Shown here piece by piece: positions 20,803-24,234 of a DNA stretch of 64,000 bases. Every line of letters starts with the position of its first letter. Within the stretch, counting starts at the first letter, position 1. The DNA is from Qipengyuania soli (GTDB lineage: Bacteria > Pseudomonadota > Alphaproteobacteria > Sphingomonadales > Sphingomonadaceae), in NCBI RefSeq assembly GCF_015529805.1, contig NZ_CP064654.1:1116001-1180000 (forward strand), read 5' to 3'. A program made the translations under genes and the position numbers. The notes beneath the pieces are model-generated. The model did no database searches and had not been told where the DNA came from. It saw nothing but the letters and a program-made list of their open reading frames with translations.

Positions 20803-22149
20803 TTACCAGTCGAGGGTTTCGAACTGCCCCAGCTCCTTGGGATTGAGCCGAACGCTGATCTTGCGCGTTGGCCCCTTCTCGGCCGCCTCGGCAGCAACAT
20901 CGTCTACCACGTCGCCATGGGCATAGAGCCAGGCGATCTTGCGCCCGTCACTGGCAGGGATTTCATAGGTCCGGAAAGCTGCCTTGCGGGTGAGCATGTC
21001 ACCCAGCGTCGCCAACAGCTCTTCCACGCCGTCACCGGTTAGCGCTGAAAGCGGGACAACCGATTCATCCGCTGCCGCGAGCGATGCCAGTTCCTCGGCA
21101 TCGTCGGCCTCGAGCTGGTCCCACTTGTTCCAAATCTCGATGATCGGAATGGCGGAAACCTCCCCCTCCCCTTCGATCACCCCGAGATCACGCAGGACAT
21201 CGAGTACCTGGGCTTTCTGCGCGGCAGACGATGCATTGGAGATGTCACGCACGTGGCAAATTATGTCCGCGGCGGTCACCTCCTCGAGGGTCGCCCGGAA
21301 TGCCGCAACCAGCTGGGTCGGCAAATCGGAGATGAAGCCAACGGTGTCGGAGAGGATGGCCTTCTCAACGCCAGGCAGAGTAATGGCCCGCATTGTCGGG
21401 TCCAGCGTGGCGAACAGCAGATCCTCCGCCATGACCCCGGCACCGGTGAGCCGGTTAAACAGGGTCGATTTCCCGGCGTTGGTGTATCCCACCAGGGCAA
21501 TGACCGGCCACGGGGCGCGTTCGCGGCGCTCGCGATGCAGACCGCGAGTCTTGCGAACCTGCTCCAGCTCCTTCCGCAGACGACCCATGCGCTGCCGGAT
21601 CATGCGTCGGTCCGCTTCAATCTGCGTTTCACCCGGACCGCCAAGGAAACCGAAACCGCCGCGCTGGCGCTCGAGGTGAGTCCAGCTGCGGACGAGACGG
21701 CTCTGCTGGTAGTCGAGATGGGCAAGCTCGACCTGCAGGCGACCCTCGGCCGTTGCAGCGCGTTCACCGAAGATTTCGAGGATCAAGCCGGTTCGGTCGA
21801 TTACCTTCCGCGCCAGTTTCTCCTCGAGATTGCGCTGCTGGATCGGGCTGAGAGCGCCATCGACGACAACCAGTTCAGCCTCATTCTGCTCGCATGCAAT
21901 ACGGATGTTTTCGACCTGACCTGCCCCAAACAGCAGGTTCGGCCGCACCTCGCGCACGGGCAGAATGAGGCTTTCGGCGACGATAATACCGATGGCGAGC
22001 GCAAGCCCTTCCGCCTCGGCGAGCCGCGAGGCCGCGTCGAGATCGTAGCGAATGCCCCGGATGTCCGGGCAAATGACGAGGGCTCGCGCGCCGCGCGAGA
22101 CTTCGCCCATCAGGTTGTCGTCGAAACTCAGTTGTCGTCCTCTTCCCAT
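20803..22149 (-). CDS. hflX: GTPase HflX
   Basis: Ribosome-associated GTPase that splits stalled 70S ribosomes. The 448-residue protein has the HflX N-terminal domain, the glycine-rich [13 protein letters not shown], a coiled linker, and a G domain with G1 G221-Y-T-N-A-G-K-S-T229, G3 D-T-V-G-F and G4 N-K-W-D. The ATG at 22149 lies within the end of hfq (22-base overlap); an in-frame ATG 13 codons on is possible. hfq-hflX is a conserved order, here at the end of the ntr operon. Confidence 0.95.
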
Positions 22150-22685
22150 TCCTCGGTCAGGTCGACCGGCGTGGTCGGCTGAATCGTGGAAACGGCATGT
22201 TTGTAAGCCAGCTGCACATACCCGTCGCGCTCAAGCAACATGCAGAAGAGGTCGTAAGCGGCGATCTTGCCCTGCAGCATGACGCCGTTGACGAGGAACA
22301 TGGTCACTTGCGCCTCTGCCTGGCGAACGCGGCTAAGGAATACGTCCTGCAACAAGCGCTGCCGTGCGTTCGAGTTCTGGCTGGCGAATTGCGAGGCATC
22401 GACCGGCTGGCCCGGCATGATCGTGCTGATGGCGTGCTTGTAGACCAGCTGCGACTGACCATCCCGCCGCAGCAGGATCGAGAAATTGTCGAACCAGGTC
22501 ACGATGCCCTGCAGCTTCACGCCCTTGACCAGGAACATGGTCACCGGCGTCTTGTTGCGGCGCAAGAGGTTTAGGAAGGCATCTTGCAGGTTGCCTTGTT
22601 TCTGGCCCCCTGCCCCACCCCCTGCGGTCTTCTCGGCCGCCGGTTTTTCCGGACGCGGACGAGCAGTAAGGGTACGTTCGGACAT
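22128..22685 (-). CDS. hfq: Tandem (two-domain) RNA chaperone Hfq
   Basis: Hfq is normally one Sm-fold domain of about 65 core residues that forms a hexamer. This 185-residue chain holds two: residues 31-92 (L-Q-D-A-F-L-N...Y-K-H-A-I-S-T) and 110-170 (L-Q-D-V-F-L-S...Y-K-H-A-V-S-T), joined by about 18 residues, with an Ala/Gly/Lys-rich N-terminus and an acidic tail. Both copies keep the proximal Q and Y-K-H-A. Copy 1 keeps the rim patch (R-R-N-K) and distal K57; copy 2 has R-Q-A-E and M136 there. Three chains could form an alternating pseudo-hexamer. Start ATG 22685 with GGAGAGA before it. Confidence 0.93.
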
Positions 22686-22848: not shown

Positions 22849-24234
22849 TCAGTTCTTGCGATCCCCCGGCTTCTTGTCGGCCATACCCAGGAGCTTCAAT
22901 TTACGATGGAGGGCTGAACGCTCCATCCCGATGAAGCTCGCCGTCTTGGAAATATTCCCCGAGAAGCGGCGTATCTGGATGGTCAGGTACTCGCGCTCGA
23001 AGCTCTCGCGAGCTTCGCGCAAAGGCGCTCCCATTAGTGCGGCTACGCCGCCATTTCCGCCCACCTTGCCTCCGAGCACTTCTTCGGGGAGCATCTCCGT
23101 TTCGATGTGCTCGAGCTGTTCTCGTGGCGTCAGGATCACGGTGCGCTCCACCACGTTGCGCAGCTGGCGCACGTTGCCTGGCCAGTCGTAGGCTTGAAGC
23201 GCCGCCAATGCCTCTTCGCTAATCGTCGGGGGACGTAAGCCCTGCTCAGCAGCATAGTGCGCGAAGAATGTATTCGCGAGCGCGGGGATGTCGTCCCTAC
23301 GCTCCGCCAGTGAGGGCACCTCAACCGGCACCACGTTGAGACGATAGAAGAGGTCTTCGCGAAACCGCTTCTCCTCCATTTCCTTCTGAAGATCTCGAGC
23401 GGTCGAACTGACCACCCGGACGTCGACTCCGATCTGGCGTGAGCCGCCGACGCGCACGAAGCTCTGTTCCGTCAAAACGCGCAATATACGCGCCTGAGTG
23501 GAGAGCGGCATGTCGGCAACCTCGTCGAGATAAAGGGTTCCCCCATCCGCCATTTCGAGGAGTCCAGGCCTGACCAGCTTGCCGTCCGCTTCCTCTCCGA
23601 ACAGTTCCTCCTCGAACCGTTCCGGTGTGATCCGGGCCGAATTAACGATCACGAAGGCCTTCTCGGCCCGTGGACTCCAGCTGTGAAGCAGTCGCGCGGC
23701 CACTTCCTTACCCGTTCCGGCGGGACCACTGATGAGGACGCGGCTGCCAGTGTTCGCCACACGCTTCAGCGTAGCGCGCACAGCGTTGATCACGGTCGAA
23801 TTGCCAGTGAACTCGCCGTTCTGAACCATGCCCTCGCGCAAGCGCGTGTTTTCGCGTCGCAGCCTCTCGGTTTCTGTAGCACGGTCGACCAGATGGAGCA
23901 GGCGCTCAGCCTCGAAAGGTTTCTCGAGGAAGTCCACCGCGCCTCGGCTTACCGCACTTACCGCTGTGTCGATGTTACCGTGGCCCGAAAAGACAATGAC
24001 CGGAAGGTCCGGTTCGCGAGCCTTGATGGCGTCGAGCACTTCGAGCCCGTCCATTGGGCTGCCATGCAACCAGACGTCGAGGAGGACGAGGCTCGGCCTG
24101 CGCTCATCGACCGCCGCCAAGGCGCTGGTGCTGTCACCTGCAGTCCTGCATTCGTAGCCTTCGTCGCTCAGAACGCCCGCCACGAGATCGCGGATGTCGC
24201 GTTCGTCGTCGACGATCAGGATGTCTAGCGCCAT
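22849..24234 (-). CDS. ntrX: Response regulator NtrX, without the sigma-54 contact loop
   Basis: Partner of the NtrY kinase in nitrogen and redox control. The 461 residues have a receiver domain (phospho-acceptor D53 in L-L-D-V-W), an AAA+ domain (Walker A G-P-A-G-T-G-K-E; L-Y-L-D-E-V-A-D-M-P), and a Fis-type helix-turn-helix at the end. Between E-E-E-L-F-G and the L-Y-L-D-E strand, the G-A-F-T-G-A loop that touches sigma-54 is absent, and the segment is about five residues shorter than in the NtrC of this window. It probably acts as an ordinary DNA-binding regulator rather than a sigma-54 activator. Confidence 0.93.
   Translation of the reverse strand: MALDILIVDDERDIRDLVAGVLSDEGYECRTAGDSTSALAAVDERRPSLVLLDVWLHGSPMDGLEVLDAIKAREPDLPVIVFSGHGNIDTAVSAVSRGAVDFLEKPFEAERLLHLVDRATETERLRRENTRLREGMVQNGEFTGNSTVINAVRATLKRVANTGSRVLISGPAGTGKEVAARLLHSWSPRAEKAFVIVNSARITPERFEEELFGEEADGKLVRPGLLEMADGGTLYLDEVADMPLSTQARILRVLTEQSFVRVGGSRQIGVDVRVVSSTARDLQKEMEEKRFREDLFYRLNVVPVEVPSLAERRDDIPALANTFFAHYAAEQGLRPPTISEEALAALQAYDWPGNVRQLRNVVERTVILTPREQLEHIETEMLPEEVLGGKVGGNGGVAALMGAPLREARESFEREYLTIQIRRFSGNISKTASFIGMERSALHRKLKLLGMADKKPGDRKN

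Follow-up and report, generated by a model that had tools for sequence, protein, structure and literature searches.

Hfq proteins with two Sm-like domains in one chain were reported in 2010 by Yang et al. (PMC2877685), who described a double Hfq in Zymomonas mobilis (ZMO0347) and in six other species of the Sphingomonadales; here and below, the cited papers are represented by extracts. The available text of that report raises the question of a ring made of three chains and shows, with a Z. mobilis mutant, that the double Hfq is needed for inhibitor tolerance. That text does not compare the two halves in their RNA-contact residues, and the available part of a study of hfq overexpression in Zymomonas (PMC9797736) yielded no passage on the two domains. 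A description of a difference between the halves was not found in the open-licence literature, supplementary files being outside the search. By sequence, no solved double Hfq was found, since the 35 PDB sequences that match each do so in one stretch; the VIA list holds single-core Hfq chains only and is neutral on whether a two-core fold is known.

The Hfq of Caulobacter crescentus (6gwk) differs in having one core per chain, and with it six identical rims and six tails; it is a hexamer whose RNA binding is restrained by the acidic tail, docked on R18 and K19 of the rim, and pairing activity follows how many arginines the rim has (PMC6561178, in extract). N28 and K31 are present in every one of its subunits. 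In E. coli, a rim mutation of Hfq blocks MgrR-mRNA pairing (PMC6239178, in extract). The proximal site is formed by Q8, F42, K56 and H57, and the distal site includes Y25 (PMC5379935, in extract); one account, as far as its extract goes, calls Y25 and K31 proximal, at odds with the other papers (PMC11770335). Eukaryotic Sm/Lsm hetero-rings also combine unlike Sm subunits with divided roles (PMC2877685, in extract), an analogy only: they are built from seven subunits encoded by separate genes, whereas here two subunit types are contained in each chain.

The window analysed here, a stretch of 64,000 nucleotides from Qipengyuania soli, encodes a protein with two Sm-like domains in one chain, like ZMO0347 as described in PMC2877685 (in extract). 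The locus is arranged as follows:

22128..22685, minus strand: hfq, a 185-residue chain with two Hfq cores (PF17209, NF010691)
22590..22685, minus strand: N-terminal extension, residues 1-32, basic, with a TLxARP-type motif (motif pattern, pLDDT)
22401..22589, minus strand: first Hfq core, residues 33-95, with K54 (E. coli position 28), K57 (31), N67 (41) and rim R42, R43, K45 plus R73, R74
22353..22400, minus strand: linker, residues 96-111
22164..22352, minus strand: second Hfq core, residues 112-174, with N133 (E. coli position 28), M136 (31), L146 (41) and rim R121, Q122, E124 plus E152, R153
22131..22163, minus strand: acidic C-terminal tail, residues 175-185 (11 letters)
20803..22149, minus strand: hflX, downstream neighbour (listed frame)
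22849..24234, minus strand: ntrX-like response regulator, upstream neighbour (tree marker together with hflX)

The frame runs from the ATG at 22685 to the end of the stop at 22128 on the minus strand and has no internal stop. PF17209, with a curated cut-off of 27 bits, matches it twice, with 105.6 bits (E 2.8e-30) at 22401-22589 and 84.2 bits (E 1.4e-23) at 22164-22352, and these E-values exclude chance as the source of the double core; the whole protein scores 185.6 bits against the same model, again in two stretches. The two matches confirm the two complete cores that the original prediction had read in the sequence, and the residues it cited are correctly numbered (Q34/Q113, R42-R43-N44-K45 against R121-Q122-A123-E124, K57 against M136, and YKHA in both halves). 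The protein also fits NF010691 (PRK14091), the NCBIfam model of the double Hfq, entitled 'RNA chaperone Hfq' and 176 positions long, with 304.6 bits (cut-off 270) over residues 24-184; this is a name model only and holds nothing on asymmetry. NF047718, for a cyanobacterial-type Hfq-related protein, stays below its cut-off (38.9 bits against 52), and the related Pfam model PF21979 passes (39.6 bits, cut-off 27, residues 43-89), far under the PF17209 score. In the host genome, a single contig of 2.91 Mb listed as 100% complete, PF17209 matches at this locus only.

A frameshift or stop between the halves, one of the findings by which the original prediction would have been refuted, was not found: both halves lie in one open frame on all 80 named contigs fetched, which, with a genome in one contig, excludes a frameshift or assembly artefact. 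The closest named relative fetched, from Qipengyuania proteolytica, has 91% identity. The neighbours are hflX-like (downstream) and ntrX-like (upstream). HflX relatives adjoin hfq in every tabulated locus, double or single, and almost every Sphingomonadaceae locus also has an NtrX relative. The listed hflX frame begins within the end of hfq, an overlap of 22 bases at 22128-22149; a later hflX start is possible.

Outside the cores, the N-terminal extension carries the TLxARP-type motif pattern in 87 of 124 doubles, the rest being without it, and has a mean net charge of +2.9; it is possibly a further RNA contact, and its residues 1-30 are modelled at low confidence (pLDDT about 48-62). The linker measures 14-16 residues between the two matches in 110 of 126 doubles and has a net charge of zero or above in 117 of 124, and the tail is acidic, at a net charge of -3 or below, in 121/126 doubles and 38/39 singles.

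The double Hfq, which the original prediction mentioned as a case noted in Novosphingobium, proved to be the normal state of the family. An Hfq match is present in 396 of the 397 genomes of the order, and in the profile-search table two matches were counted in 321 of the 336 Sphingomonadaceae genomes and one in the other 15; the presence of both matches in one frame was confirmed for the fetched loci (126 distinct doubles plus genus g12). The 15 single-match genomes make up nine genera (g7, g13, g18, g28, g39, g44, g47, g55 and g56), none of which has any double. In the 61 genomes of other families there is one match in 59, none in one, and two on separate contigs in one (G001, where one of the two is a short piece). 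Beyond the order, no tandem Hfq outside the Sphingomonadaceae appeared among the matches listed in the class and phylum searches, which distant tandems could escape. Both halves were aligned in only 6 of 387 genomes of the class, all Sphingomonadaceae, among the matches listed; four class rows from elsewhere (G447, G667, G400 and G665) reach residues 125-153 only via read-through of a stop. In the phylum, the NF010691 cut-off was passed by 3 of 120 genomes, again all Sphingomonadaceae.

Several unusual sequences accompany this distribution. A double Hfq of sphingomonad type lies on a contig titled Actinobacteria bacterium 21-64-8 (L099), probably a mislabelled or contaminated metagenome bin. 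Four metagenome proteins of 241-248 residues (P0004, P0010, P0013 and P0017) contain three cores, seen as three PF17209 stretches by scan in two of them and recognised by alignment in the remaining two. Their middle core changes between second-half and first-half sequence at varying points, a pattern that unequal crossing-over or chimeric assembly would give. Another protein of 245 residues, P0011, resembles them in length, and none of the 397 genomes of the order has three Hfq matches.

The history of the fusion was traced with a tree of HflX and NtrX from 68 genomes, 50 with a double and 18 with a single Hfq, the latter comprising ten of the 15 single-domain Sphingomonadaceae genomes and eight from other families. 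A branch with SH-aLRT support of 100 (quick search, no bootstrap) sets all 50 doubles apart from the singles, so that one change is needed and repeated or convergent fusions are rejected. A tree of the cores themselves, whose 72 columns are too poor to add much, places the second halves in one group at 100 and requires two changes for the first halves. By the tree of HflX and NtrX, the fused gene duplication is shown to have a single origin, in the ancestor of most Sphingomonadaceae; the simplest account is one fusion event, with no loss seen within the 68-genome sample. Descent of the single forms from doubles that lost one half is unsupported, since all 39 single cores carry N28 and K31 and the first halves carry K28.

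The halves were compared, in E. coli numbering, across 124 different doubles and 39 different single-domain relatives. The doubles are the relatives nearest to the window and so lean towards Erythrobacter-like genera; L142 and L172, both of genus g12, were left out of them and that genus was counted apart, and most of the single cores come from the best-scoring 30 of the order-wide search. Across the 248 halves, 21 positions are invariant, including Q8, F25, G29, Q33, Q52, Y55, K56, H57 and T61. The proximal pocket (Q8, F42, K56 and H57) is present in both halves of the window protein, F42 being kept in 247 of the 248 halves and the other three residues in all of them. Against this background a small set of positions separates the halves. 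Position 28 is N in all 39 singles, K in all 124 first halves and N in all 124 second halves, and position 31 is K in all singles, K in all first halves and M in all second halves. Position 63 is M in the singles and in 122 of 124 first halves, and Q in all 124 second halves. Position 41 is N in the singles and in all 124 first halves, and L in 119 of 124 second halves (N67 against L146 in the window), and position 38 is W in singles and first halves and A in 109 of 124 second halves. Positions 28 and 31 lie, we presume, on the A-rich (distal) face.

The rim shows the same division. Positions 16, 17 and 19 are all basic in 39/39 singles and 124/124 first halves; in the second halves the number of basic residues there is 0 in 40, 1 in 77, 2 in 5 and 3 in 2, that is, at most one in 117 of 124. 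Over the rim set, net charge averages +4.9 in singles, +4.8 in first halves and -0.3 in second halves. Because 21 positions are invariant while the differences at 28, 31, 41 and 63 are fixed, the sequences indicate that the base pockets are common to both halves and the charged contacts are divided between them, and that the asymmetry is real and old. The original prediction of a proximal face kept in both halves thus stands for Q8, K56 and H57 and fails at position 41, and its K/M difference on the distal face is conserved throughout, not a peculiarity of this genome. The first half, which it took for the full one, does keep the rim and K31, but has itself exchanged N28 for K.

We think it somewhat probable that the double protein serves as the normal Hfq of the cell, as a ring of three chains with alternating halves among which the contacts are divided. 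Since the genome has one Hfq, the double must do Hfq's job. With three chains, the six cores would form one closed ring, first and second halves taking turns around it. The pockets for bases at the proximal (U) and distal (A) sites would be intact in every core; the first halves would contribute a full basic rim, K31 and the extra K28, and the second halves L41, M31 and N28, together with a rim that is neutral or acidic in the window's clade. Such a ring would have three strong rim sites instead of six, and one of the three acidic tails could dock on each. Binding of sRNA 3' ends and of A-rich mRNA should persist, and the three rims of the first halves would drive pairing. That a ring with three full rims should pair RNAs via its first halves follows by analogy, because the rim mutation in E. 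coli blocks pairing and pairing activity varies with the rim arginines.

The single-chain model suggests that the two cores are confidently placed relative to each other, because its pTM is 0.77 despite 45 of the 185 residues below pLDDT 70. This apparently fixed packing speaks against a very improbable arrangement without alternation, in which six chains would assemble two stacked rings, one of first halves and one of second halves. A linker of 14-16 residues could in principle reach that far, and crystals of Aquifex Hfq show stacked Hfq rings (PMC5379935, in extract), but the cost and crowding of such an assembly would also lower its likelihood. A candidate client for the alternating ring is at hand: the host genome encodes a suhB sRNA (RF00519, 54.6 bits, cut-off 41; outside the window), and in Sphingopyxis granuli TFA, whose Hfq is presumed to be double, the sRNA SuhB represses thnR in an Hfq-dependent manner (PMC6563040, in extract). 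A second, weaker RF00519 match in the host genome (32.4 bits) is below the cut-off.

To offset the weighting of the 124 doubles, the counts were repeated in 48 genomes of 46 genera. The changes at positions 28, 31 and 63 recur in all 48, and the second rim falls into two tiers: by sequence it is acidic or neutral in the window's clade and partly basic in a sister group. In the 34 genomes of the clade the second-half rim has at most one basic residue, 28 have D or E at position 17, and E stands beside K47 in all 34; in the 12 genomes of the sister group, 0, 1, 2 and 3 basic residues are found in 2, 4, 4 and 2 genomes, and E beside 47 in none. A pair (L138 and L140) has a mixed rim state. The second half was originally called stripped, and it does have fewer basic residues, but in the window's clade the charge is reversed. 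Nor is the loss universal, which counts against the alternating ring with divided contacts: the second rim retains three basic residues in 2 of the 48 genomes and two in 5. The original prediction had named an intact rim in the second half of close relatives as refuting it; the 2 genomes go part of the way, though they are not close relatives. Genus g12, which evolves fast, departs further. Both halves lie in one frame in all 29 of its genomes (about 2.1-3.0 Mb; L177-L205), K28 is kept in 29/29 first halves and N28 in 28/29 second halves, and M31 in 21/29 (R in 2); its second half has R at 17 in 21/29, and position 41 is no longer N/L. Five of its first halves have Q in place of H57, and eight of its second halves have F in place of Y55.

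That 34 genomes of one clade show a reversed charge, as opposed to a mere loss of charge, is what would be expected if the acidic second-half rims were docking sites for a protein partner, e.g. a nuclease, on a ring with three RNA edges and three protein edges. We regard this as improbable, as the sister group with its partly basic second rim would then be without the partner.

The two halves have also kept their identities over time. Within one protein they share a mean of 59% identity (range 50-70%, 47 proteins), and between genera the first halves are 86% and the second halves 75% identical, so that gene conversion between the halves is rejected (59% within a protein against 86% for first halves across genera). 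Decay of the second half is likewise rejected by its dN/dS of 0.028, against 0.029 for the first (14 close relatives; 54 and 59 of the 91 pairs gave usable values, with dS close to saturation), values that show strong and equal purifying selection on both halves at the sequence level. These data bear on a rather unlikely reading with the same three-chain ring, in which the asymmetry as such is without function, three rims and three K31 being enough and the second copy having drifted, kept only for its structure. The greater variation of the second halves, the variable rim letters with a degree of loss that differs by clade, and the erosion of both halves in g12 would all suit drift. It would not be expected to fix M31 and Q63 in every second half of the 124 and N28K in every first half, nor to leave the dN/dS of the halves equal, and a rim that is specifically acidic in the window's clade is unfavoured by drift alone.

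A further elaboration of the alternating ring strikes us as attractive and, on balance, unlikely. Three chains would bring three tails and three fully basic rims, a pairing offered with reserve because the charges do not co-vary as predicted: matching of tail and rim within the family is unsupported, the charge of the second rim being unrelated to that of the linker (rho -0.14, p 0.13) and related to that of the tail with the wrong sign (rho +0.35, p 6e-5), both uncorrected for descent. The protein would then be a naturally three-fold Hfq, in which the fusion made the first tail a neutral or basic linker, left three tails, and the unguarded second-half rims were switched off or reversed in charge; this would give a self-gated matchmaker in which three RNA-pairing edges are open and three closed for good, with K/M and K/N alternating on the A-rich face.

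Both the fusion and the idea of a three-chain ring are already on record (PMC2877685, in extract; NF010691). The fixed division of the charged contacts, the single origin and the two tiers of the second rim were not found in the open-licence literature and seem to be new. In a six-fold Hfq, the number of rims or faces that an RNA needs is hard to test, since each mutation hits all six subunits. If the three-chain model holds, the ring of this family would allow half of the subunits to be changed at a time, with first-half and second-half sites altered separately. The family also offers a dated evolutionary series, from a single Hfq to a double with a partly basic second rim and on to a double whose second rim is acidic.
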